Assembly (NCBI GenBank): GCA_019307945.1
Contig: JAFDIS010000030.1
Span: forward strand, 1-36,673
Direction: 5' to 3'
Source: Deltaproteobacteria bacterium
Lineage (GTDB): Bacteria > Desulfobacterota > DSM-4660 > Desulfatiglandales > Desulfatiglandaceae
DNA length: 36,673 nucleotides
Position numbers and translations under genes: made by a program. Below, one piece after another: positions 474 through 16,560 of this stretch (within the stretch, counting starts at the first letter, position 1; every line of letters begins with the position of its first letter). The notes under the pieces were generated by a model. The model ran no database searches. It was given only the letters and a program-made list of their open reading frames with translations, and had not been told where the DNA came from.

Positions 474-2468
474 TTATCTCCCTGCGCGTGGCAGGTCCAA
501 GACGGTCCTGAACCCTACCTCCTCAAAGGCCTCCCATGGCTTACGGAAAAGAGGTGCGGGCACAATCGACTTCTTTTTCGAGTTCCCTCCGAGACTTCCC
601 ATGATGGCATATTTCATTTTAATTTTTTCCCCAATCCCGGCCTTCAGTGCCCATTCACTGATGTGTTCATTCAGCCCTCGTATCCCAAGGGCGTTGGGCT
701 TTGAATTCAGCACCGGAGAGGGAAAGTGCGACGGCTCGGCAATGGACGGCTCACGCTTTGCGGTTTCCTGTCCGTCTGGATGTATCATTCCCATCATACC
801 AGTCATCTGAGCACGGCCCCAATCTTCTCCCTGTGACGGAGACCAGTATCTGGAGTATTCGGATTGCCGAGTAACCCTCCTCTCGCTTGAGGCCCCCTCT
901 CCCTTGATTAAGCTGTACAACCATTCCCGAACACTGGGCAGACGTTTTCCGTAAAACTCTGCATAAGCAGCGGCCCCATATGCCGTAACGCGAACGACCG
1001 GGCAGGACGCATGGGCCGGCTTGTTTACGTGAAAGCGTCCCCCCCGGTATATGACGGGCTCATATCCTTCCAGTACCTCTCCTAGAAGGAGCCAAATTCG
1101 CCTCTTGCTTTTAACGACATCTTCTTTCACCTGAATCCGGGATATAACCCGGTTCAGAAAATCCACGTATTGATGATTTGTCACAAGGGTCTCATCCATA
1201 TAGAAGGGTTTGAGTGTAATCGAGTTCATTTCTGGAAAGCCGGAGGCATTAGGCAAGCCAACGGTTCCTCCTGGAATCAAGTGCAGATTTACCCCGTCTT
1301 CGGCTACCAGTACCTTTGGTATCGGGCCCTTGACTGCCTCGGCGCGACTGGACGAGCCCCCTCTAACGGACATCAACGTTTCGGCTTCGATCTGCTGAGG
1401 CGCCTCCAGGTTAAATGTCACGCCGTCAGGACCTTTCGGACTCCATAAAACCCACGTTATCCCGAGAGAGATTCCGATGACAGCGACCAGAAAAATACCA
1501 ATGAACCGTTTACTGTCCGCAGGAAAGATCCAGCGGAGGGGTATTGATGGCCTGAATTTCCCCACACCCGGTCCATATCCATTGTCAATTTCTGGATCAA
1601 GGATCACCGCCAACGCACTCCTCAACTCAGCAACTGAGCTGAAACGTCTTTCTTTATCTTCCTCAGTGGCCCTCTGGATCACTGAGTCCAATTTTTCAAG
1701 AAAGGGCGTTCCCGCCTTGCTTAGAGCCGCCCGCCTAAAGGGTATTGTATTACTCTTAATCCGCCCCTCGACGGCCTCATACAGGATTTTGCCCAGTGCG
1801 TATACGTCGGTTCTTTCATCAGTTCTTCGGAAGTCCGAAAACTGTTCGGGAGGCATATATGCCGGAGTTCCCCTCATCTCCGCCGATTGTGTAATAGGCT
1901 GTAAAGCATAGGAATGAGCCAGGCCGAAATCCGTGATCTTTGGAATATTGCGGTCAAGCAGAATATTTTCAGGTTTAATATCCCGATGGACGATTCCCGC
2001 TTCGTGCAATGCCTCAACTCCATTCAGTATTGGAAGGAAATACTTGCGGATCCATTCTTTTACAAGTCCCTCTTCCGGGTAAAATCCATCATCCGACATG
2101 GTGGAGCGCAGAGATCCCCCCGGCACGAATTCCATTGCAATATACTCAAGAACAATTTCGCCCCCAGCTACACCGACCGCGAAAGAACCCTGATCAAACA
2201 CGGGCAGGATGTTAGCGTGCCGGACTTGAGCCATTGAATGCATTTCATTCTTGAATCGTTGGATGCCCGAAACCAGTTCTTCCTCGTCTTCCTGAAGTGA
2301 TTCAATCCACTCCTTGGAAATAACCTTTATGGCTACGTCACGTTTCAGGTTGAGCTGGTGAGCACGATAGACCTCTCCCATACCTCCTCGGCCGATGAAT
2401 TCGAGAATTACCCACTTGTCGTTGAGTATAGTCCCAATCTGAAGATTGTTTTCAACTTCTTTATTCAT
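474..2468 (-). CDS. Membrane Ser/Thr protein kinase with C-terminal FGE/SUMF1-like domain
   Basis: This is a Hanks-type kinase of about 664 residues. Residues about 20-290 hold the kinase: glycine loop GRGGMGEVY, ATP lysine K48 in VAIKV, catalytic D163 in HRDIKPEN, D180 in DFG and the GTPAYMPPEQ activation segment. A single membrane segment lies at about 322-342, so the kinase is cytoplasmic and the rest extracytoplasmic. Residues about 385-660 resemble the formylglycine-generating-enzyme fold (PVVRVTAYGAAAYAEFYGKR, then RLPSVREW). The usual WEW and RGGSW motifs are degenerate near the C-terminus and the catalytic cysteines are missing, so it probably senses or binds rather than oxidises. The ATG at 2468 is chosen over an in-frame TTG at 2483. 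The gene follows the PP2C gene by 41 bases, which suggests a kinase/phosphatase operon. Confidence 0.88.
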   Translation of the reverse strand: MNKEVENNLQIGTILNDKWVILEFIGRGGMGEVYRAHQLNLKRDVAIKVISKEWIESLQEDEEELVSGIQRFKNEMHSMAQVRHANILPVFDQGSFAVGVAGGEIVLEYIAMEFVPGGSLRSTMSDDGFYPEEGLVKEWIRKYFLPILNGVEALHEAGIVHRDIKPENILLDRNIPKITDFGLAHSYALQPITQSAEMRGTPAYMPPEQFSDFRRTDERTDVYALGKILYEAVEGRIKSNTIPFRRAALSKAGTPFLEKLDSVIQRATEEDKERRFSSVAELRSALAVILDPEIDNGYGPGVGKFRPSIPLRWIFPADSKRFIGIFLVAVIGISLGITWVLWSPKGPDGVTFNLEAPQQIEAETLMSVRGGSSSRAEAVKGPIPKVLVAEDGVNLHLIPGGTVGLPNASGFPEMNSITLKPFYMDETLVTNHQYVDFLNRVISRIQVKEDVVKSKRRIWLLLGEVLEGYEPVIYRGGRFHVNKPAHASCPVVRVTAYGAAAYAEFYGKRLPSVREWLYSLIKGEGASSERRVTRQSEYSRYWSPSQGEDWGRAQMTGMMGMIHPDGQETAKREPSIAEPSHFPSPVLNSKPNALGIRGLNEHISEWALKAGIGEKIKMKYAIMGSLGGNSKKKSIVPAPLFRKPWEAFEEVGFRTVLDLPRAGR

Positions 2469-2509
2469 GCTACGGTCTTTCAAGAGCGTTTCATCCCGAA
2501 TTGCCCAAG

Positions 2510-3301
2510 CTACGGAACGTTGACTACGATAACTGTAACGTTGTCTTTTCCTCCATTTTCAAGAGCGGCCTCAATCAAGCTGTCACATGGAGTATTTCCT
2601 TTGGTGTTTGTCTGGAGAATCTCCGTGATCTGCCCCTCTGAAATCATATCATACAGCCCGTCACTGCACAGGAGAAAAACATCGCCCGATTGTATCCCCA
2701 CTTTTTTGGTATACAAATCATCCACTCCCTGCCCAAGTGCCTGAACCAAGGCATGACTCAATGGATGTCCCTGCGCTTCATCAGCCTGCAAGTAGCCCAT
2801 TTCCACTGAAAGCTGGGCTATCGTATCATCACGTGTCAGTTGCTTAAGATGGCAATCCCTGAGCAGGTAGATCCTGCTGTCACCCACATGTGCGATATAG
2901 GCCATATTATCCGTTAGGATGAGAACGGAAAGGGTGGTACCCATGTGTTCATATTTCACCACGCTATGGGCGAGCCTGGATATTTCCTCATGAATAGCGA
3001 AAAAAGCCTTTTCCAAATTGGCCATGATTTCATCCGGTCTCCTGCTCCGTGAGATAGCAAGACGCGCCTCTCTATCCGAGTACCGTTCGCGCAATCCTTC
3101 TATTGCCATCTTGCTCGCGATTCTCCCTCCTGTCTTCCCGCTTATACCGTCGGCAACAGCAAAAAGGGAGCCTGCGTCGGCCACCAGATTATCAGTGTTC
3201 CAAATCCTTGTGAGCACCACATGGGAATCCTCATTCTGCGACCTTTTGAGACCCCTGTGGGATTTAACACAATATCCGATATCTCGCGAACCTGTTTTCA
3301 C
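2510..3301 (-). CDS. PP2C-family Ser/Thr protein phosphatase
   Basis: A 263-residue soluble metal-dependent phosphatase that would remove phosphate from Ser/Thr, most likely on targets of the adjacent kinase. The PPM motifs appear in order: RSQNEDS with metal-binding D25, FAVADGISGKTGG with D51-G52, HVGDSRIYLLRD, LLCSDGLYDMIS and the C-terminal GGKDNVTVIVV. The length is typical of stand-alone bacterial PP2C proteins of the Stp/PrpC type. The start is GTG, with GGGAAAG a few bases upstream. The gene is the first of a two-gene minus-strand unit with the kinase. A weak AT-rich promoter candidate lies about 90-120 bases upstream (roughly 3391-3425). Confidence 0.9.
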   Translation of the reverse strand: MKTGSRDIGYCVKSHRGLKRSQNEDSHVVLTRIWNTDNLVADAGSLFAVADGISGKTGGRIASKMAIEGLRERYSDREARLAISRSRRPDEIMANLEKAFFAIHEEISRLAHSVVKYEHMGTTLSVLILTDNMAYIAHVGDSRIYLLRDCHLKQLTRDDTIAQLSVEMGYLQADEAQGHPLSHALVQALGQGVDDLYTKKVGIQSGDVFLLCSDGLYDMISEGQITEILQTNTKGNTPCDSLIEAALENGGKDNVTVIVVNVP

Positions 3302-4671: not shown

Positions 4672-5841
4672 TCAGGGCCGTTCTCTCATGACATAGGTCA
4701 AAACGGGCGGCTGTATCCTGATCACCCTCACCCGGTCGTTGGGTAAAATGACCTGCCCCCGGCCGATCCTCACCTTGTTGCTCCCCACCCTGCTCCCCGA
4801 GAGGTCCACCCGGACCTCCACGTTGCTTTCATCCAGTAGGCCCACGTCCTTTCGCAGACCGCGCACCGTGATACGAACTCTGGGGTTCGGAGGCTCTGTG
4901 ATGCGCAGGATCGCGGGCAGATTGGCCGATTCCACCGGCACTGTGAAAGACGCCTGGAAATCCTGCTGCCCGGCAAACAACAACCATGTCAGGGACACCA
5001 CCAGCAGACTGAGCGCCTTGGTCCGCCAGCGGCGGACCACATATCCGCGGAGCCTTTCCCACCGATTCCCTCCTGCGGGTCGCGGCGGAGCCACGGCCTC
5101 ATGCATGAACCGCATGAATTTCTCCGGCGATTCCATGATCCGCAGATTCCCCCCCATTGCCACCGACACCTCCCCCCGCTCCTCGGAGACCACGATCACC
5201 AGGGCGTCGGCGCGCTTCGACAGTCCCAGTGCAGCCCGGTGCCTCGTACCCCACCGGCGGGGCAGGTCTTTCTCGGAGCTCAAGGGAAGATAGGTGGCCA
5301 CCTGCCGTATCCTGCCGTCCGCCACGATGACCGCTCCGTCGTGGAGCGGGGAGTCCTTCTGAAAGATGCTCAACAAAATCTCCGGGGTGGGAGCCGCTTC
5401 CATGACCTGGCCCGGGGTAATGTGGCCCTGGACCCGCTCGCTGCGCTCCACCACCACGAGGGCCCCGATGCTCCGCCTAGCCAGTTGAAACACACCGTTC
5501 ACGAAATCACTGATCCATGCCTCGGGGGGTGTCATTTTCCGAATACCGAGCAGTTTTACCGGATTGAGCCGTTCCAGGACCTGCCTGATCTCGGACTGGA
5601 AAAGAATGATCAGCAGGATCACCAGGACCTGCCAAAAGACCTGGAAGACCCAGGTGGTGAGAAACAGGCCCCAGGAACGGGCCAGGGTGTATACCGCGCC
5701 CAGGCCAAGGAGCCCCACCATGGCCTTGAGGGCCCGGGTCCCCTGGAACCAGAGATAGAGGTGGTATGCCACCACGGAGAGAAACGCCACGTCCAGGACG
5801 TCCTGGACCCGGAGGTTCTGGATGATGGACAGGGTTTCCAT
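4672..5841 (-). CDS. cdaA: CdaA-type diadenylate cyclase fused to a YbbR domain
   Basis: The protein makes c-di-AMP from two ATP at the inner face of the membrane. The 389 residues comprise three N-terminal membrane helices (about 15-85), a DAC domain with the catalytic motifs D168-G169-A170 (LHDGAVIV) and R200-H201-R202 (GTRHRAALGLS), a fourth membrane segment near 272-290 and a C-terminal domain of about 100 residues resembling a single YbbR repeat. Free CdaA is about 270 residues. In Firmicutes the YbbR partner, CdaR, is a separate membrane protein encoded next to cdaA and binding it. Here both are in one chain. The ATG at 5841 is chosen because a G-rich ribosome binding site precedes it and the glgB stop lies 13 bases upstream. 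The longer open frame is read-through into glgB. It is the last gene of glgC-glgA-glgB-cdaA. Confidence 0.88.
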   Translation of the reverse strand: METLSIIQNLRVQDVLDVAFLSVVAYHLYLWFQGTRALKAMVGLLGLGAVYTLARSWGLFLTTWVFQVFWQVLVILLIILFQSEIRQVLERLNPVKLLGIRKMTPPEAWISDFVNGVFQLARRSIGALVVVERSERVQGHITPGQVMEAAPTPEILLSIFQKDSPLHDGAVIVADGRIRQVATYLPLSSEKDLPRRWGTRHRAALGLSKRADALVIVVSEERGEVSVAMGGNLRIMESPEKFMRFMHEAVAPPRPAGGNRWERLRGYVVRRWRTKALSLLVVSLTWLLFAGQQDFQASFTVPVESANLPAILRITEPPNPRVRITVRGLRKDVGLLDESNVEVRVDLSGSRVGSNKVRIGRGQVILPNDRVRVIRIQPPVLTYVMRERP

Positions 5842-5854
5842 GCTCACGCCCCCC

Positions 5855-7855
5855 TCAGCCGGACGCCCCGGAGGGGACCCGACGGCCGCCCGCTTCACCC
5901 GGTATCGGGGCGGCGGCCGCTGCCCTGCCCTGCCCGGATTCATCCCTCGCGAGGAACAGGATGGCCAGGGGAGGCAGGGTGAGCGGCAGGGAGTAGGGCC
6001 TTCCGTGATGCGGGATTTCCTCGGCCATGACGCCGCCCAGGTTCCCCTGCCCGCTGCCCCCATACAGGGGGGCGTCGCTGTTGAGCAATTCGCGCCACCT
6101 GCCCTTGGCGGGGACCCCGACGCGATAGCCGTGATGCGGCACCGGCGTGAAATTGCACACCACCACCACGGCGTCCTGGGACGCCTCACCCTTGCGCAGG
6201 AAACAGAGGACACTCTGCTGCGAGTCGTTGCAGTCGATCCACTCGAACCCGGCGGGTTCGAAGTCACGCTCGTGGAGCGCGGGTTCTTGGCGCAGGATTC
6301 GATTCAGATCCCGGACCCAGTGCTGCACCCCCTGGTGCATGAGGTCTTCCAGGAGATCCCAGTCCAGGCCGCCTTCGTGGGTCCACTCGTTCCACTGGCC
6401 GAACTCCCCCCCCATGAAGAGGAGTTTTTTCCCGGGCTGGGCGTAAAGGTTTCCCAAGAGGAGCCGCAGGTTGGCAAACTTCTGCCAGGGGTCGCCGGGC
6501 ATCTTCCGCAACAGGGACCCCTTGCCGTAGACCACCTCGTCGTGGGAGAGGGGAAGCACGAAGTTTTCGTGAAAGGCGTAGAGCATCCGGAAGGTGAGCC
6601 GGTCGTGGTGGTACCGGCGGTGGACGGGGTCCCGGGACATGTAGTCCAGGGTGTCGTGCATCCACCCCATGTCCCACTTCATCCCGAATCCCAGGCCTCC
6701 GAGGTATGCGGGCCTTGACACCATGGGCCAGGAAGTGGACTCCTCGGCGATGGTCTGCACGTCCGGAAACACCCGGTAGACTTCCTCGTTCAGCGTGCGA
6801 AGGAAGGCCACGGCCTCCAGGTTTTCCCTCCCCCCGTGCTTGTTGGGGATCCACTCCCCTTCCCTTCGGCCGTAGTCCAGGTAGAGCATGGAGGCCACGG
6901 CGTCCACCCGTAGGCCGTCTGCGTGGTAGCGGTCCAACCAGAAAAAGGCGCTGCTCACGAGAAAGCTTCGGACCTCGTTGCGGCCGTAGTTGAAGATGAG
7001 GCTGTCCCAGTCCGGGTGATGGCCCTGCCTGCGGTCGGCGTGCTCGTAGAGGTGGGTGCCGTCGAAAAAGCCCAGGCCGTGGGCGTCCGCCGGGAAGTGG
7101 GAAGGGACCCAGTCCAGGATCACCCCCACCCCCGCCCGGTGAAACCGATCCACCAGGAACATAAAGTCCTGGGGCGTCCCGTACCGGCTTGTGGGGGCGA
7201 AGTACCCGGTGGTCTGGTACCCCCAGGAGCCATAAAACGGGTGCTCCGTGACGGGGAGGAACTCCACGTGGGTAAACCCCGTGTCCACCACGTAGGGGAC
7301 GAGTTCTTCGGCCAGTTCCCGGTAAGTCAGGGCTCGGTCGTCTTGGGTTCTTTTCCAGGACCCCAGGTGCACCTCGTAGATGGACATGGGGGCGCGGTGG
7401 CCGTTTTTCATCCGCCGTGCCCCAAGCCAGGGGCCGTCGCCCCATTCATAGGCCGTGTCCCAGACGATGGAAGCGGTCTTGGGCGGCACCTCGTGGTAGA
7501 GGCCGAAGGGGTCGGCCTTATCCGCCACGTGGCCGTTGAGCCGGGACCGGACCCGATACTTGTAGCAGGCACCTCTTGAAACGTCCGGGATGAAGCCCTC
7601 CCAGATTCCCGAACTCTCCCGCGGGCGCAGGGGGTGCGCTCCCCCGTCCCAACCGTTGAAGTCCCCGATCACGGAGACAGTCTCCGCATCCGGGGCCCAG
7701 ACGGCGAAGTAGCCCCCCTTTCGTCCACCGGCCTCTACGAGATGACAACCCAGTTTCTCGTAGAGGCGGAAGTGCCTGCCTTCGTTGAAGAGGAAGAGGT
7801 CATCCGCGCTCAGCAGACTGAAATTCGACGCTTTCTTTTCCCCTGTGCTAGCCAT
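5855..7855 (-). CDS. glgB: 1,4-alpha-glucan branching enzyme
   Basis: The enzyme transfers alpha-1,4 chains to make the alpha-1,6 branches of glycogen. The chain has about 666 residues: an N-terminal CBM48 domain ([23 protein letters not shown]), a GH13 barrel and a C-terminal beta domain. The catalytic triad is visible: nucleophile D318 ([12 protein letters not shown]), acid/base E371 (IAEEST) and D439 ([12 protein letters not shown]). It is shorter than the E. coli enzyme because the extra N1 domain is absent, as in many bacteria. The ATG at 7855 is preferred over GTG at 7867. It overlaps the glgA stop in ATGGCTAG, with a GGGGGTG site inside glgA, so the two genes are probably translationally coupled. 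The last 25 or so residues are Ala/Gly/Pro-rich and look like a non-conserved tail. Confidence 0.95.
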
Positions 7856-9398
7856 GTGCCGAAACACCCCCGGCCTTTCGCCCCATCAGGGCCTCGTAGA
7901 GTTCCATGTACAGCGCCGCTGAACGGTCCCAGGAAAAGTCCGCGCTCATGGCATTTCGCACCATCCGGGGCCATTCTTTTTTTCGTGAAAATGCCCTCAC
8001 GGCCCGCTTCACCGCTTCGGCCAGGGCCCCTGCGTCGTAGGGTTCGAACAGGAAACCGTTTTCCCCGTCCCGGATCGTGTCTTTCAGGCCGCCCGTGGCC
8101 CGTGCCACGGGGATCGTGCCGTAGCGCAACGCATAGATCTGGGTCAGGCCGCAGGGCTCGTACAGGGAAGGCACGAGCAGAAAGTCCGCTCCCGCCATGA
8201 TACGGTGAGAAAACCCCTCGTCGAATCCGATCCTCAAGGAGACCCGGCCCGCGTAAGGAGCAGCGGCACGCTCCAGGGCCTCCTGGATCCGCATGTCCCC
8301 GTTGCCCAGGATCACGATACCCGTGTCCAGGGCCACCAGCTCTGGCAGGGCCTGTGCCAGCAGGTCCATGCCCTTCTGGCGGTCCAGGCGGGAGACCACG
8401 CCGAGGATCGGGCGGTCTCCGGGTACCCCGTCCAAGCCCGTCTCCTGCACGAGGGCCTTTCTGCAACGCGACTTTCCTTGCATGTTCCCCGGCCCGTACC
8501 CGGCTGCAATGTGGGGGTCGCGGGCCGGGTCCCAGCGTCCGTAATCCGCGCCGTTCAGAATGCCCTTCAGGGAATCGCCCCGGGCCCGGAAAACCCCTTC
8601 CATGCCCAGGCCCAACTCCGGCGTGCAGATCTCCCGCGCATAGGTGGGGCTCACGGTGGTCAGGGCGTCTGAGTACACCGCCCCGGCCTTCAGGAGGCTC
8701 AGGCTCCCCCAGTACTCCAGACCCTCAGGGTGGTAGCATTCCGCCCTTGAAAGCCCTGTGACCTCGAGCTTTTCGGCGGGAAACAGTCCCTGGTAGCCCG
8801 CGTTGTGGATGGTGAAGACCATCCGGGCGGTCGCCACCGAGGGATCCCCCCTGTAGGGTCCTTTGAGGAGCGGAGCCACGAGACCCGTCTGCCAGTCGTG
8901 GCAGTGGACCACGTCCGGGGTCCAGGACAGGGCCCCGGGAATTCGGAGTGCGGCGTGGCAGAGAAAGGTGAACCGCTCCAGGTTGTCGTAGTAATCACCC
9001 CGCGGGGCGGCATAGAGATTGGGCCGGTCGTAGAGGTCTTCCCGGTCCAGGAGGTAGAGGGGCACCCGCCCCAGGCGTCCTTCCCGCACGGCGCAACGCA
9101 GGTCCTGCCCCCCCAGGGGGACCTCCACCTCCGTCAGGACGGGGGCAGACCCCTCCATCCTTTTCCGAACGCCCCGGTAAAACGGCAGAACCACGCGCAC
9201 GTCGGCACCCAGCCGCAACAGTGCCTGGGGCAGGGCCCCGGCCACGTCCCCCAACCCGCCGGTCATGGCCAGGGGCGAGGCCTCGGGGGAGACGAAGAGG
9301 ACCCTCGGAGACCCGTCTCTCGTCGTTCCCCTTTCGGGCCCCTCCCCGGCCGGCCCCTTGGCCCGCTCCGGGGGGTACGGTTTCTCCTCTCGTGACAT
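7848..9398 (-). CDS. glgA: Glycogen synthase, GT5 family
   Basis: A 516-residue enzyme that would add glucose from ADP-glucose to the growing alpha-1,4 chain. The GT5 features are clear: an N-terminal Rossmann half starting [34 protein letters not shown] and the C-terminal [15 protein letters not shown] signature. The chain has about 30 extra N-terminal residues before the first strand. Oddly, the KTGGL nucleotide-sugar motif reads MTGGL, with Met45 where the family has a lysine. The start ATG is preceded by GGGGCGAGAA. It sits 35 bases after glgC and overlaps glgB by 8 bases. Function is still best assigned as glycogen synthase because the other binding residues are in place. Confidence 0.94.
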
Positions 9399-9433: not shown

Positions 9434-10711
9434 TCAGGGCTGCTTGAAATACCCCTTGGGCACCACCACGATGCCCCTCCGTGTAACGGTGAACTTCTTG
9501 GCGTCCTCGCGGGGGTCGTGTCCGATCTCCGTACCCGGGGGCAGGACGTTGTCCTTATCGATGATGGCCTTCTTGATCCTGCAGTGCCTGCCCACCAACA
9601 CACCGTCCAGGATCACCGACTCATCCACCGTGGCCCAGCTTCGGACCGTCACGTTGAAGGACAGCACACAGTTTCGCACGATGCCGCTCACGATGCAGCC
9701 CGGCGCCACGAGGGAGTCCAGGGCCTTTCCAACCCGCGGATTTTGCCCCCGCTCGCTGGCGAACACGAACTTGGCGGGAGGCGCATTGGGCTGGTAGGTA
9801 TGGATCGGCCACTTTTCGCCGTAGAGGTTGAAATAGGGGTTCACGCCCGTCAGGTCCATGTTCGCGTTCCAGTAGGCGTCCAGGGTACCCACGTCCCGCC
9901 AGTAACTGGAATCACGGGTCCTGGGCTCCAGGCGGGGCCTGCGTTCCCCGTTGGCCAGGGTCTCGAACACATAGTCCTCGATCCGGTTGAACTTGCGGTA
10001 AGGGTAGGCGAAGACCCGGTGGCTCTGCAGGATCCGGGGGATGATGTCCCTGCCGAAGTCGTCCTCCTTCCCCCCCGCCAGCAGGTCCTTGAGGACCTCG
10101 GTGCGGAACAGGTAGATGCCCATGGAGGCCAGGACGTGGCCCTTGTCCCCCGGCACCGTGGGGGCGTCCTTCTTGGGTTTCTCCTGGAACCGCCTGATCC
10201 GGAAATCCTCCCCCACCTCCGCCACCCCGAACTGGCTCGCAGTTTCCGTCCCCACCTCCAGCAGGGCGACGGTGAGATCGGATTCCTTCTCCAGATGGTA
10301 GCGGTAGAACAGGCTGTAATCCATCTTGTAGATGTGGTCCCCGGAGAGGATCAGCACGTGGGCTGGCTTGTGGTCCCCGATGAGATAGAGGTTCTGGCGG
10401 ATGGAATCCGCCGTGCCCCGGTACCAATCGAGGCCCGTCCTTTGCTGGGGCGGGACATTCTTCAAAAAGTGACCGATCTTTTTACTGAAAATATTCCACC
10501 CGTTCTCCAGATGCTCGGTCAGGGACTGGGACTTGTACTGGGGCAGGACGATGATCTTGTAGATCTGGGAGTTGACGCAGTTGCTCAGGGTGAAATCCAC
10601 GAGACGGTAGATCCCGCCGAAGGGGACCGCCGGCTTGGTCCGGTCCCGGGTCAGGGGCATGAGCCGCTCGCCCCTGCCCCCGGCCATGATGAATGCGAGG
10701 ATTTCTTTCAT
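9434..10711 (-). CDS. glgC: Glucose-1-phosphate adenylyltransferase (ADP-glucose pyrophosphorylase)
   Basis: A 425-residue enzyme catalysing ATP plus glucose-1-phosphate to ADP-glucose and pyrophosphate, the committed and usually allosterically controlled step of bacterial glycogen synthesis. The nucleotidyltransferase domain opens with MAGGRGERLMPLTRDRTKPAV, shown here in pieces: the GGRGERL loop and RTKPAVPFGG. It continues with SGDHIYKMDYS and FQEKPK. The last 120 or so residues form the left-handed beta-helix domain typical of GlgC. Length matches the family. The ATG follows GGGGAG by about 7 bases. It is the first gene of the minus-strand synthesis operon, read from a predicted promoter that overlaps the divergent malQ promoter. 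Confidence 0.96.
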   Translation of the reverse strand: MKEILAFIMAGGRGERLMPLTRDRTKPAVPFGGIYRLVDFTLSNCVNSQIYKIIVLPQYKSQSLTEHLENGWNIFSKKIGHFLKNVPPQQRTGLDWYRGTADSIRQNLYLIGDHKPAHVLILSGDHIYKMDYSLFYRYHLEKESDLTVALLEVGTETASQFGVAEVGEDFRIRRFQEKPKKDAPTVPGDKGHVLASMGIYLFRTEVLKDLLAGGKEDDFGRDIIPRILQSHRVFAYPYRKFNRIEDYVFETLANGERRPRLEPRTRDSSYWRDVGTLDAYWNANMDLTGVNPYFNLYGEKWPIHTYQPNAPPAKFVFASERGQNPRVGKALDSLVAPGCIVSGIVRNCVLSFNVTVRSWATVDESVILDGVLVGRHCRIKKAIIDKDNVLPPGTEIGHDPREDAKKFTVTRRGIVVVPKGYFKQP

Positions 10712-10775: not shown

Positions 10776-10804
10776 TTGCCTCAACCGCTCCTAAGGAGTA
10801 TAAT
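10776..10804 (+). promoter_or_regulatory. Predicted sigma-70 promoter of the malQ operon
   Basis: A perfect -10 box TATAAT (10799-10804) stands 17 bases after TTGCCT (10776-10781), a four-of-six match to the -35 box. Transcription would begin near 10811, giving a leader of about 45 bases to the upstream ORF and 174 bases to malQ. The -10 box shares bases with the opposing glgC promoter. Confidence 0.6.
10788..10798. promoter_or_regulatory. Palindrome in promoter spacer, operator candidate
   Basis: CTCCT-A-AGGAG is a perfect inverted repeat filling the end of the spacer of the malQ promoter and lying just downstream of the glgC -10 box. A regulator bound here could block or choose between the two promoters. 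It is short, so chance or a weak hairpin remains possible. Confidence 0.35.
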
Positions 10805-10826
10805 CCCTTCGCACCGCATTTACCAA
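10797..10826 (-). promoter_or_regulatory. Predicted sigma-70 promoter of the glgCAB-cdaA operon
   Basis: On the minus strand TTGGTA (10826-10821) is followed after 18 bases by TATACT (10802-10797), a five-of-six -10 box. The leader to glgC would be about 80 bases. Its -10 box overlaps the malQ -10 box on the other strand. Confidence 0.5.
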
Positions 10827-10984: not shown

Positions 10985-12484
10985 ATGGATCGGCGCGCCA
11001 GCGGTGCCCTGCTTCACGTAACCTCCCTGCCGTCCCCTTACGGGCTGGGCGATTTCGGGCCGGGGGCCACTTGGTTTGCGGATTTTCTGGCCCGAACCCG
11101 TCAGCATTACTGGCAAATCCTGCCCTTGAACCCTACGAGGCCGGAGGCGGGGCACTCTCCTTACCACAGCCCGTCGGCCTTTGCCTTCAACCCGCTGCTC
11201 ATCAGCCCGGAGTTTCTCGCAAGAGACGGGGTCCTGGCAGGGGGTCTTGACAACTTCGCCCCCCTGCCCCCGGGCCGGGTGGACTATGGAGCCGTCTCCG
11301 CCCGCAAGGGGGCGATCCTGGAACGGGCAGCCCGAAATCTGCAGCAGGGACAGGGCCCCTTGGGAGAGGATTACGAGCGATTCCGCCAAGAAAACGCGGG
11401 GTGGCTGGACGATTACGCCCTGTTCACCGCCCTGAAAGCACAATTTGAGGACCGGCCCTGGGCCTCGTGGGACCCTCCCCTCCGGGACCGCGACCCGGGC
11501 GCGCTGCGGGAGGCCGCCCGGTCCCTCTCGGAGGAGATGGAGCGTATCAGGCTCCTCCAGTACATGGCCTTCCGCCAGTGGCGGGACCTGCGGGCCCATT
11601 GCAATGCCAGGGACATCCGGGTGATCGGGGACATGCCCATCTACGTGGTCTACGAGAGTGCGGACACCTGGGTCCACCCGGAAATCTTCCACCTGGACGA
11701 GGCCAAGAGGCCCGTGACCGTTGCCGGGGTTCCACCCGACTATTTCAGTGAGACCGGCCAGTTGTGGGGCAACCCGGTCTACCGCTGGGATGTGCTGAGG
11801 GAGCAGGGGTTTTCGTGGTGGATTGACCGGCTCCGCCACAACCTGGGGCTTTACGACCTGGTTCGGATTGATCACTTCCGTGGTTTCGTGGGATACTGGG
11901 CAATCCCCGCGTCCGAGAAGGACGCCGTGAACGGGCGCTGGGTGTCCGCGCCGGGCTGGGATTTCTTTCGGTGCATCACGGGACATTTCGAACGGTTGCC
12001 TATCATTGCAGAGGATCTGGGGATCATCACGCCGGACGTGGTGGAAGTGATCCGCCACTTCCAGTTCCCGGGGATGAAGGTCCTGCTCTTCGCCTTCGGG
12101 AGCGATCTGCCCACGAACCCCTACGCCCCGCACAACCTGGACCGGCACTGCGTGCTGTACACGGGGACACACGACAACAACACGGCCAGGGGCTGGTTCG
12201 AACAGGAGACCTCGCCGGAAGACCGGGACCGGCTGCAATGGTACCTGGGCAAGGAGGTGCACCCCCACACCGTGGGGATTGACCTGATCCGGCTGGCCAT
12301 GATGTCCGTGGCCGACACGGTGATCTTCCCCGTCCAGGACCTCCTGTGCCTGGGACCCGAGGCGCGCATGAACCGCCCGGCCACCCGCGGCGGCAACTGG
12401 GAGTGGCGCCTGGACCCGGCCATGCTGAATCCGGCCGTGGAGGAGACCTTGCGGCGCATGACGGAAATTTACCGCCGGGCGTGA
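10985..12484 (+). CDS. malQ: 4-alpha-glucanotransferase (amylomaltase)
   Basis: A 499-residue GH77 disproportionating enzyme that moves alpha-1,4-glucan segments between chains, letting short maltodextrins be recycled during glycogen breakdown. The family opening RRASGALLHVTSLPSPYGLGD is present in pieces (RRASGALLH, TSLPSPYG). The catalytic residues are nucleophile D296 (VRIDHFRG), acid/base E343 (IAEDLG) and D397 (TGTHDNN). The signature GMKVLLFAFG lies between the last two. Length is typical of the compact bacterial type without an N-terminal extension. The ribosome binding site is weak, and translation may depend on the upstream ORF. First main gene of the plus-strand operon. Confidence 0.95.
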   Translation: MDRRASGALLHVTSLPSPYGLGDFGPGATWFADFLARTRQHYWQILPLNPTRPEAGHSPYHSPSAFAFNPLLISPEFLARDGVLAGGLDNFAPLPPGRVDYGAVSARKGAILERAARNLQQGQGPLGEDYERFRQENAGWLDDYALFTALKAQFEDRPWASWDPPLRDRDPGALREAARSLSEEMERIRLLQYMAFRQWRDLRAHCNARDIRVIGDMPIYVVYESADTWVHPEIFHLDEAKRPVTVAGVPPDYFSETGQLWGNPVYRWDVLREQGFSWWIDRLRHNLGLYDLVRIDHFRGFVGYWAIPASEKDAVNGRWVSAPGWDFFRCITGHFERLPIIAEDLGIITPDVVEVIRHFQFPGMKVLLFAFGSDLPTNPYAPHNLDRHCVLYTGTHDNNTARGWFEQETSPEDRDRLQWYLGKEVHPHTVGIDLIRLAMMSVADTVIFPVQDLLCLGPEARMNRPATRGGNWEWRLDPAMLNPAVEETLRRMTEIYRRA

Positions 12485-12508: not shown

Positions 12509-14002
12509 ATGGACCCCCTTCGCAGAAACCCCCACATCTACCAGATCAACCTCATGACCTGGCTCCGGGACCTGTCCTCAGAGCTGGGCCGCAGGGTGAC
12601 CCTGGAAACGATCCCCGGCGACCGGTGGCCGGCGCTCCGGGAACTGGGCATGGACCTGGTCTGGCTCATGGGCATGTGGGAGAGGAGCCCCACTTCGCGG
12701 GAAAAGGCCAGGAGGGAGCCGAACCTCCTGGAGGCAGGCCGCAATGCCCTGCCGGACTTCGAGGTGGAAGACCTGGACGGTTCCCCCTATGCCGTTCATG
12801 ACTACCGCCCCGATCCGCGCTTCGGGTCCGAGGAAGCGCTGCTGGCCGTGAAGGAGGCCTGCGAGGCGGTAGGTTTGCGGCTCATCCTGGATTTCGTCCC
12901 GAACCACACGGCCTGTGACCACCAATGGGTCCTGGAAAAGCCTGAAATCTACGTGCACAAGGAAACGGCGGAAGACCCGGTGGATGGGTTTTTCCGCGTA
13001 CAGGGGCAGCCCTACCTCGTGGCGAACGGCAAGGACCCCTATTTTCCCCCCTGGACGGACACGGCCCAACTGCACTATGGAAGAAAAGAAACCCACCAGG
13101 TCATGGCGCGGGCCTTGCTGGGGCTCACCCGGTTCTGCCACGGGTTTCGTTGCGACATGGCCATGCTGGTTCTCCGGGACATCTTCCGCAACACCTGGGG
13201 CGCCCTGGTCGGTGACCCTGAAACCCAGGAAGAATTCTGGGATCTGGCGCGTCGCGCGTTCAAAGCCGAAGGGGTCTCCCCCCTCATGATCGCCGAGGCC
13301 TACTGGGGCACGGATGCCAGGCTCCGGGACCTGGGCTTCCAGTTCGTCTATGACAAGGAACTCTATGACCTCTTCAGCGCCAGGGACATCGCCCGCCTTC
13401 GGGAACTCCTGGCACGCCCGGCCGCGGAACAGGAACACCAGGTCCGCTTCCTGGAAAACCACGACGAACCACGCGCTATGGCCTTCCTGGGGCCGGGGCA
13501 CATCCGCTGCGCCATGGTCCTCCATGCGACGTTGCCCGGCATGCGGTTCTGGCAGGAGGGGCAGTTCGAGGGATACAGGATCCGCGTGCCCGTGCAACTG
13601 TCCAGGGCCCCGCGGGAGGAAGCCGACCCGGACCTCCTGCGGTTTTCCCACGTGCTGCTTCGGCTCGTGGATCACCCGGTATTCCACGACGGGGCGTGGG
13701 AGCTTTGCGAAACGGCCGGGTGGCACGACAACGATTCCCATCGCCACCTCCTCGCATGGTCCTGGCGCCTCGGACAGGAGAGACGTTGGATCGTGGGAAA
13801 CCTCTCGGACCAGGGCGCCCAGGGCCGCGTGATCCCACCCTCGGGATGGCTCCCCCGAGCCAGGGCCCTGTGGCTTTCCGACCCCCTCAAGGGGGAGCGG
13901 TTCCAGCGTGAACGGGCCAAAACGGAAACGCACGGGCTGTACGTCGGCCTCGGACCCGGTGAATTCCATTTCTTCACGGTGGAGGGAAGGATAGAACGAT
14001 GA
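12509..14002 (+). CDS. GH13 alpha-amylase-family protein
   Basis: A 497-residue cytoplasmic glycoside hydrolase with no signal peptide. All four GH13 regions are readable: DFVPNH (I), GFRCDMA with nucleophile D216 (II), IAEAYWG with acid/base E263 (III) and FLENHDEPR with D319 (IV). A C-terminal beta domain follows. It could cleave or transfer on linear glucan or maltodextrin. The exact specificity (alpha-amylase, debranching or transferase) cannot be read from sequence alone. AAGGAG stands 4-5 bases before the ATG. It lies 24 bases after malQ and overlaps glgP by four bases (ATGA), so it works in the same pathway. Confidence 0.88.
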   Translation: MDPLRRNPHIYQINLMTWLRDLSSELGRRVTLETIPGDRWPALRELGMDLVWLMGMWERSPTSREKARREPNLLEAGRNALPDFEVEDLDGSPYAVHDYRPDPRFGSEEALLAVKEACEAVGLRLILDFVPNHTACDHQWVLEKPEIYVHKETAEDPVDGFFRVQGQPYLVANGKDPYFPPWTDTAQLHYGRKETHQVMARALLGLTRFCHGFRCDMAMLVLRDIFRNTWGALVGDPETQEEFWDLARRAFKAEGVSPLMIAEAYWGTDARLRDLGFQFVYDKELYDLFSARDIARLRELLARPAAEQEHQVRFLENHDEPRAMAFLGPGHIRCAMVLHATLPGMRFWQEGQFEGYRIRVPVQLSRAPREEADPDLLRFSHVLLRLVDHPVFHDGAWELCETAGWHDNDSHRHLLAWSWRLGQERRWIVGNLSDQGAQGRVIPPSGWLPRARALWLSDPLKGERFQRERAKTETHGLYVGLGPGEFHFFTVEGRIER

Positions 14003-16560
14003 CCCATCCCATCAAGACGATCGAGGTAAAACCGAGGGTGCCGGAAAGGCTCGAGCCGCTTTACGCGCTCTCTGGCAATCTTTATTTCGCTTGGCATCAC
14101 GACGCCTCGGAGCTTTTCCGCCGGATCCATCCGGATCTTTGGAAGGCGTCGGACAAGAATCCCGCCGCCTTCCTGGGACGCCTCCAGCAAGAGGAGCTGG
14201 AATCCCTCGTGGCGGACGAAGGGTTTCTCGCGCACATGGAGAGGATGAACGCCGAGTTCAACCGTTATCTGGCTGAGAAACCCAACGAAGACATTTTCTC
14301 GGGGGCCGGGGGGCCCTTCGTGGTAGCTTACTTCACCGCGGAATGCGGTCTGGCCGAATGCCTCCCGATCTACTCCGGCGGCCTGGGAATCCTTTCGGGA
14401 GACCACCTCAAGTCCGCCAGCGACCTGAATCTGCCCATCGTAGGCGTCTCCCTCGCCTACCAGAAAGGCTATTTTCGCCAGTACCTCACCCACGACGGCT
14501 GGCAGATGGAAACCTACCCGGTAAACGACTTTTGCACCCTGCCCATGGAACGGGTGACGAACGCCCAGGGAGAACCTCTGACCGTCTCCGTGGACCTCCG
14601 TGGGGAAACGGTGCAGATCCAGGTCTGGCGCGTCCGGGTGGGCAGGACGGTGCTCTATCTCTTGGACACGAACGTGGAAGGCAATTCCCCGGCAGCTCGG
14701 GAGGTCACCTCGGAACTTTACGGAGGCGACCGGGAGATGCGCATCCGGCAGGAGATCGTGCTGGGGATCGGCGGGGTCCGTGTCTTGGAGGCCCTGGGGC
14801 TGGAGCCCGCGGTCTATCACATGAACGAGGGACACTCGGCCTTCGCGCTCTTCGAGAGAATCCGACACCTACACCAGGACATGGGTTTCAGTTTCAACGA
14901 GGCCGTGGAATTCGTCAAGGCCACCAGCGTGTTTACCACCCACACGCCCGTGCCGGCCGGAAACGACATGTTCCACCCGGACCTCGTTCGGGCCTACTTC
15001 GAGGGCTTTGCCGTCGCCATGGGGATCAACATCGATGTCCTGCTGGGCTTTGGGCGCCAGAACCCCCGGGCCCAGACCGAAGAGTTCTGCATGACCGTCC
15101 TGGCGCTTCGTCTTTCCAGCCGATGCAACGGCGTCAGCCGCCTCCACTCCCAGGTCAGCCGACGCATGTGGCATCAGATTTGGCCCAAGATGCCCGAGCG
15201 GGACCTGCCCATCGGTTACATTACCAACGGGGTCCACATCCCTTCCTGGATCAGCCGGGAGATGGCGGAAAACTACGCGCGGTACCTGGGGCCCCGCTGG
15301 ATCGAGGACCCCGACAACGTGATGGTCTGGGAACGGGTGGAAAAGATCCCGGACACGGAGCTGTGGAGGACCCACGAAAGGGCCAAGGAACGCCTGGTGG
15401 CCTTTGCGCGGGCGAGGTTGCGCGAACAGATGTTCCGGCGCGGGGTGCCGCGCCGGGAACTTGCCCTCGCAGACGACGTGCTCAACGCCGAAGCGCTCAC
15501 CATCGGGTTTGCCCGACGCTTTGCCCCCTACAAACGAGCCTCCCTCATTCTCCGGGACATCCCCAGGCTCGAACGGATTCTCCTGGATGCCCGGCAGCCC
15601 GTCCAACTGATCTTCGCCGGCAAGGCGCACCCCCAGGATCACATGGGCAAGGAACTCATCAAGCAGATCGTCCAGATCGGGTCCCAGGAGAAGTTCAGGC
15701 GCCACGTGGTCTTCCTGGAGGACTACGATATCGAGGTGGCCCGACACCTGGTGCAGGGGGTCGATGTCTGGCTCAACACCCCGCGGCGACCCCTGGAGGC
15801 GTGCGGCACGAGCGGCATGAAGGCCGTGGCCAATGGCGCCCTGCACCTCAGCGTCCTGGACGGGTGGTGGGACGAAGGGTATGACCCGGACCTGGGATGG
15901 GCCATCGGCGGCGGAGAAGACTTCGAGGACCACGAATACCAGGACGAGCTGGAAAGCAGGATCCTTTACGACATCCTGGAAAAGGACGTGGTCCCCCTGT
16001 TCTACGACCGGGGTGCGGACCATCTCCCCAGGGGCTGGGTGGCCATGATGAAGGCCTCCCTTCATCGCCTCTGCCCCATGTTCAACACCCACCGGATGGT
16101 GATCGAGTACTGGGAACAGTTCTACCTGCCGTGTGCCCGCCGCGGTTCGGAACTCAAGGTTCAGGACTGGCAGGGCCTGCAGAGCCTCGCGGCCTGGCGG
16201 GAGAAGATCATGTTCAACTGGGGCGATGTGGCCGTCAGAGAGGTGATGCTGGAAAGGGGGACGCAGGCCCTCGTGAGTCAGCCGTGCAAGGTGCAGGCCG
16301 TGGTGAAGACGGGGAGCCTCGCGCCGGAGGACTTGGTGGTGGAGGCCTATTTTGGGAGGCTCGATCCGGCAGGCGCCTTCACCGAGAGCCACACCGCGGC
16401 CCTCACCCACGTAGATGCGCTCGAGGAAGGGGTCCACCGCTTCCAGGGGGATGTGGTGTTCAAGAGCGTGGGCCAATACGGCCTCAACGTGCGGGTCACC
16501 CCGCGACACCCCGACGCTGCCAGCCGCCTGTCCATGGGACTCGTGGCGTGGGGGGAGTAG
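13999..16560 (+). CDS. glgP: Alpha-glucan phosphorylase
   Basis: An 853-residue PLP enzyme of the GT35 family that releases glucose-1-phosphate from the non-reducing ends of glycogen. It belongs to the variant with an N-terminal DUF3417-like segment (residues about 1-110, starting IEVKPRVPERLEPLYALSGN). The PLP lysine is K608 in GTSGMKAVANGALHLSVLDGWWDEGY, seen here as GTSGMK followed by the DGWWDEGY motif. Its start overlaps the GH13 stop in ATGA and is preceded by GGAAGG. It is the last intact gene of malQ-amylase-glgP. Its stop TAG is followed in frame by a receiver-domain remnant. Confidence 0.94.
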   Translation: MTHPIKTIEVKPRVPERLEPLYALSGNLYFAWHHDASELFRRIHPDLWKASDKNPAAFLGRLQQEELESLVADEGFLAHMERMNAEFNRYLAEKPNEDIFSGAGGPFVVAYFTAECGLAECLPIYSGGLGILSGDHLKSASDLNLPIVGVSLAYQKGYFRQYLTHDGWQMETYPVNDFCTLPMERVTNAQGEPLTVSVDLRGETVQIQVWRVRVGRTVLYLLDTNVEGNSPAAREVTSELYGGDREMRIRQEIVLGIGGVRVLEALGLEPAVYHMNEGHSAFALFERIRHLHQDMGFSFNEAVEFVKATSVFTTHTPVPAGNDMFHPDLVRAYFEGFAVAMGINIDVLLGFGRQNPRAQTEEFCMTVLALRLSSRCNGVSRLHSQVSRRMWHQIWPKMPERDLPIGYITNGVHIPSWISREMAENYARYLGPRWIEDPDNVMVWERVEKIPDTELWRTHERAKERLVAFARARLREQMFRRGVPRRELALADDVLNAEALTIGFARRFAPYKRASLILRDIPRLERILLDARQPVQLIFAGKAHPQDHMGKELIKQIVQIGSQEKFRRHVVFLEDYDIEVARHLVQGVDVWLNTPRRPLEACGTSGMKAVANGALHLSVLDGWWDEGYDPDLGWAIGGGEDFEDHEYQDELESRILYDILEKDVVPLFYDRGADHLPRGWVAMMKASLHRLCPMFNTHRMVIEYWEQFYLPCARRGSELKVQDWQGLQSLAAWREKIMFNWGDVAVREVMLERGTQALVSQPCKVQAVVKTGSLAPEDLVVEAYFGRLDPAGAFTESHTAALTHVDALEEGVHRFQGDVVFKSVGQYGLNVRVTPRHPDAASRLSMGLVAWGE

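Follow-up and report, generated by a model that had tools for sequence, protein, structure and literature searches.

The analysed stretch of DNA (the window; 36,673 nucleotides) carries a gene confirmed to encode a CdaA-type diadenylate cyclase with a fused YbbR domain, which is the fourth gene of a glycogen synthesis operon. The fusion as such is ordinary in the phylum; the novelty is the gene neighbourhood. The genetic link to carbon storage suggested by a previous sequence-only reading did not hold at the level of the order glgB-cdaA, but it holds at the level of the pathway, for about half of the window's cyclase clade and in two classes. The evidence inclines us, if only slightly, to the view that the cyclase is expressed together with the glycogen enzymes and that, through it, a signal from the envelope or from turgor acts on the balance between glycogen and small sugar solutes.

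The operon is located on the reverse strand and consists of glgC (glucose-1-phosphate adenylyltransferase, 9434..10711), glgA (ADP-glucose glycogen synthase, 7848..9398), glgB (glycogen branching enzyme, 5855..7855, with ATG at 7855 and an alternative GTG at 7867) and the cdaA-ybbR fusion (4672..5841, ATG at 5841). The gaps are 35, -8 (using the ATG at 7855) and 13 bp; this order and these spacings had been read from the letters before and were confirmed, the identities of the genes being given by Pfam and NCBIfam. A sigma-70-like promoter, which is a consensus match only, lies upstream of glgC (10797..10826, reverse strand), and a second promoter-like consensus match points toward malQ. From the intergenic region shared with the glgC operon, malQ (4-alpha-glucanotransferase, 10985..12484; Pfam, NCBIfam), a gene for a GH13 alpha-amylase family protein (12509..14002) and glgP (alpha-glucan phosphorylase of the DUF3417 type, 13999..16560, overlapping the GH13 gene by 4 bases) diverge on the forward strand; therefore, with six glucan genes around it, cdaA belongs to an alpha-glucan region. 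It is presumably co-transcribed with the glycogen genes. Downstream of the operon, a serine/threonine protein kinase-like gene (474-3301, reverse strand) and, beside it, a PP2C-like phosphatase gene were named by eye.

For the survey of relatives, 120 cyclase neighbourhoods were retrieved; a scan of named genomes yielded just six loci. The first queries were the window's GlgA, GlgB, GlgC and MalQ; the later ones (GlgP, GpgS-like and CBM48 proteins) had been found beside cdaA and were thus chosen after seeing the data. A cyclase gene was regarded as linked if its own strand carries a glycogen, alpha-glucan, GpgS-type or CBM48 gene no more than 700 bp away, and as background for the enrichment the other cyclases of the family were used in place of a gene-shuffling null. 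Clades were labelled at first by identity to the window protein; the tree then placed one locus labelled B (L121) with A. In this tree, the window's clade of fused cyclases (clade A) has an SH-aLRT value of 99 and contains members from two classes. Linkage was found for 19 of about 40 clade A members and for 12 of about 27 genera, counts which are not independent, as the members share ancestry; on the tree, linkage requires at least seven state changes. In the comparison set, only one of about 79 other cyclases (L155) is linked on the same strand. At the level of genera, Fisher's test of clade A versus the other cyclases gave a p-value of about 1e-6, the number of genera in the comparison set being approximate. 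Within 1 kb, there are 0.34 matches per kb in clade A versus 0.03 in longer fusions and other types. With the pre-chosen queries GlgA, GlgB, GlgC and MalQ alone, eight genera are linked.

The kind of neighbour varies. Among the neighbourhoods compared, the order glgB-cdaA was found nowhere but in the window, and the expectation that it is conserved in relatives had to be given up, a result which by the sequence-only reading's own criterion weakens its claim. The pathway-level link is real nevertheless, because other genes take the neighbour place: glgA (L045, L048, L119), malQ before and glgP after cdaA (L064, L067, L077, L078, L096), glgP (L069, L084), a gpgS-type gene on one or both sides (L047, L049-L051, L057), or a gene for a small AMPK-type CBM48 protein just downstream of cdaA (L044, L052, L054). 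About half of clade A is without a glucan-type neighbour, which speaks against the coupling proposed above. In four members (L039, L055, L056 and, on a short contig, L040), cdaA-ybbR lies between a small conserved gene and a division-like cluster, named by eye as mraZ-mraW-ftsL-ftsI. The region of the CBM48 gene in L044, L052 and L054 is also near MscS and CorA-like genes, neighbours which fit the osmotic theme. One further clade A frame (L006, 8001-9164) ends after 210 residues, yet similarity runs to its end; the early stop is probably a frameshift or an assembly error.

Two loci are especially telling. In a genome of another class (G141, L119), the order is glgC-glgP-gpgS-glgA-cdaA; in L096 (genome G080) it is gpgS-glgA-GH57-malQ-cdaA-glgP, where cdaA has overlapping stop and start codons with each of its two neighbours. 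Moreover, G141 and two other genomes of this sister class (G104, G176) possess an additional, unfused cdaA-ybbR directly before glmM, flanked by ftsH, folP, pdxJ and acpS as judged by eye. As these genomes also keep the unfused locus, clade A is a separate paralogue. In the window's genome, the clade A cyclase is the only intact cdaA. A functional link of c-di-AMP to glycogen may exist in this lineage. A more far-reaching proposal is that clade A is a lineage-specific CdaA paralogue which carries its own YbbR sensor, is devoted to the metabolism of alpha-glucan and glucosylglycerate, and makes c-di-AMP a glycogen/solute switch of anaerobic Desulfobacterota-like bacteria; we give it rather less than an even chance.

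Alternatively, the cyclase could serve housekeeping only, that is, the standard potassium, turgor and envelope roles of a genome's single intact DAC, with the glycogen operon as a handy promoter. The window's genome (a 4.16 Mb assembly, 98.5% complete) lends some weight to this explanation: cdaA is its only full-length DAC gene, and a second, CdaS-like one (genome G000, contig C101; L079, 8866-9213) is truncated at the 5' end. In this fragment the domain lacks its first 22 positions; in intact relatives the open frames span 227-248 residues. The fragment lies directly after the inverted repeat aacgttaaagattgtaa...ttacaatctttaacgtt. The same explanation is favoured by the half of clade A which has no glucan neighbours, by the members adjoining division genes, and by the MscS and CorA-like genes beside cdaA in some relatives. 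On the other hand, neighbours of this type turn up repeatedly, in several lineages and in two classes, at a rate far over background, and the sister-class genomes already own a housekeeping cdaA-ybbR-glmM locus. We judge a purely housekeeping role to be unlikely, though not remotely so.

Less probable still is the reverse direction, in which a glycogen enzyme made from the operon binds the DAC and tunes it, such that glucan flux would set c-di-AMP for osmotic control. The model for this is the regulation of CdaA by the operon-encoded GlmM in Firmicutes (PMC8573169). In the window's genome, no glmM follows cdaA; its homologues are on contigs C16 and C140, away from cdaA, and glucan enzymes occupy the operon place. 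A changing glucan neighbour would even suit a general metabolic read-out. However, the neighbours vary among GlgB, GlgA, MalQ, GlgP and GpgS without one conserved partner, and the equivalent of the GlmM-contacting R126 is an arginine in the window protein but R, Q, K or E in relatives.

The preferred reading, co-expression with signal coupling, is supported in part by the architecture of the protein, which comprises 389 amino acids. Its domains, all encoded on the reverse strand, are three N-terminal transmembrane helices (5569..5808, residues 12-91; CdaA_N, PF19293), the DAC catalytic domain (5146..5499, residues 115-232, with DGA at 168-170 and RHR at 200-202), a fourth membrane helix (4972..5064, residues 260-290, from the model) and one YbbR domain (4678..4962, residues 294-388), which is predicted to be extracytoplasmic. 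Pfam assigns CdaA_N to residues 8-85 (24.0 bits, cut-off 23.8) and DAC to residues 115-232 (128 bits). The NCBIfam model TIGR00159 (CdaA) is the best one by far, although its 184.7 bits are slightly below the cut-off of 188.8. The motifs DGA and RHR, from which an active synthase had been deduced earlier, are indeed present and are unchanged in an alignment of 34 relatives; the protein is predicted to be a membrane-bound c-di-AMP synthase. In an AlphaFold2 model (mean pLDDT 77.7), the three N-terminal helices are followed by the DAC domain, the helix 260-290 and, at 294-388, a beta domain. Compared with crystal structures of CdaA/DacA, the DAC part reaches Z-scores of 23-25, and the beta domain superimposes on the YbbR structure 3lyw with Z 11.2 and an rmsd of 1.9 over 86 residues; Z-scores for 5hqh, 2kpu and 4qdy are 10.7, 10.5 and 10.1. 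According to the model, the DAC domain would be cytoplasmic and the YbbR domain outside. A profile-profile comparison (hhalign) of the C-termini with canonical YbbR proteins gave a probability of 99.3% and E 1.6e-20. These data, together with the Pfam hits, bear out the proposed one-chain CdaA-YbbR with a fourth helix; membrane anchor and YbbR fold, the features of CdaR/YbbR, are both present, in the form of a single fused domain and not of a separate multi-repeat protein as in CdaR. The view that the C-terminus is an unrelated beta domain and "fused CdaR" a misnomer could appeal to the missing PF07949 match in the Pfam search of the window protein and to its single repeat, CdaR proteins mostly having more than one, but it is already contradicted by the structural and profile matches, by YbbR chains ranking first in a PDB search with the C-termini profile, and by PF07949 recognising 21 of 30 homologous C-termini, and we consider it exceedingly improbable.

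A profile of separate YbbR proteins detected a sole YbbR locus in the window's genome, which is the C-terminus of cdaA itself (E 2.9e-14); a second YbbR partner, which would have spoken against a CdaR-like domain, was not found with this profile. Searching the genome with PF07949 gave 0 matches, a misleading result; PF07949 was replaced by the YbbR profile because it misses the fused domain, too. The genome also encodes a PgpH-type phosphodiesterase, which counts in favour of the preferred reading. The DarA receptor was not found in it, and no c-di-AMP riboswitch was detected in 85 genomes when scored with stricter filters; thus, neither of these supplies the c-di-AMP effector, which counts against the preferred reading.

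That the fused domain takes the place of a separate CdaR partner is correct for the one chain of the window gene, but this arrangement is not peculiar to it. DAC is present in 71 of 85 genomes of the class, many with open frames of 390-500 residues, and among 395 genomes of the phylum, which to judge by named relatives is probably Desulfobacterota, fused CdaA-YbbR is frequent; in other genomes among these, a single in-frame stop separates cdaA from an adjacent ybbR. Longer fusions of the same phylum (about 480 residues) likewise combine DAC and YbbR in one chain. They differ in that they often have two YbbR stretches recognised by PF07949 and often a DUF2914 gene in front, and in that glucan neighbours are uncommon, with one same-strand case in about 70. 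The DUF2914 gene directly precedes a 480-residue fusion in L080-L083, L085, L088, L091 and L092 at a distance of 0 to 6 bases, and its product is a possible partner.

With the CdaA (DacA)/CdaR/GlmM system of Firmicutes, the window protein shares the CdaA_N helices, the DAC domain with DGA and RHR, and the YbbR fold of the partner; in contrast, it is one chain instead of two with one YbbR repeat, and glycogen genes are in the place of glmM in its operon. In cyanobacteria, c-di-AMP affects glycogen synthesis through SbtB and GlgB (PMC10117731), a precedent which the sequence-only reading had given correctly. There, c-di-AMP is connected to glycogen synthesis as proposed here, but by way of a carrier protein that binds GlgB and not through an operon. 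In Chlamydia, dacA overexpression increases the transcripts of glgA, malQ and glgP, and knock-down decreases them (PMC12422730); dacA and ybbR are separate genes there, regulation is developmental, and the passages concerned mention no shared operon. As far as these accounts extend, the cyanobacterial and chlamydial links are reported without shared gene clusters.

Taken as a mechanism, the preferred reading would comprise the following steps. A single YbbR domain, attached to the cyclase after a fourth helix, would be what is left of CdaR, and clade A would have arisen in or beside clusters of alpha-glucan and glucosylglycerate genes. The cyclase would be co-expressed with the glycogen enzymes, and its YbbR domain outside the cell would read an envelope or turgor signal, which would pass to the cytoplasmic DAC domain and be converted into c-di-AMP; the latter would adjust the glycogen store relative to the pool of small sugar solutes. 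Both the signal read by YbbR and the target of c-di-AMP are presumptive; the neighbourhoods point to GlgA, GlgB, GlgC, GlgP, GpgS and the small CBM48 protein as candidate targets.

c-di-AMP is known chiefly for the control of potassium, osmolytes and the cell wall in Gram-positive bacteria, osmolyte control being established. If the more far-reaching proposal is true, c-di-AMP would act as a switch between glycogen, which is osmotically inert, and sugar solutes, which are osmotically active. Cyclases recurring in operons for glucans and compatible solutes provide a genetic handle on the coupling of turgor signals to carbon storage.
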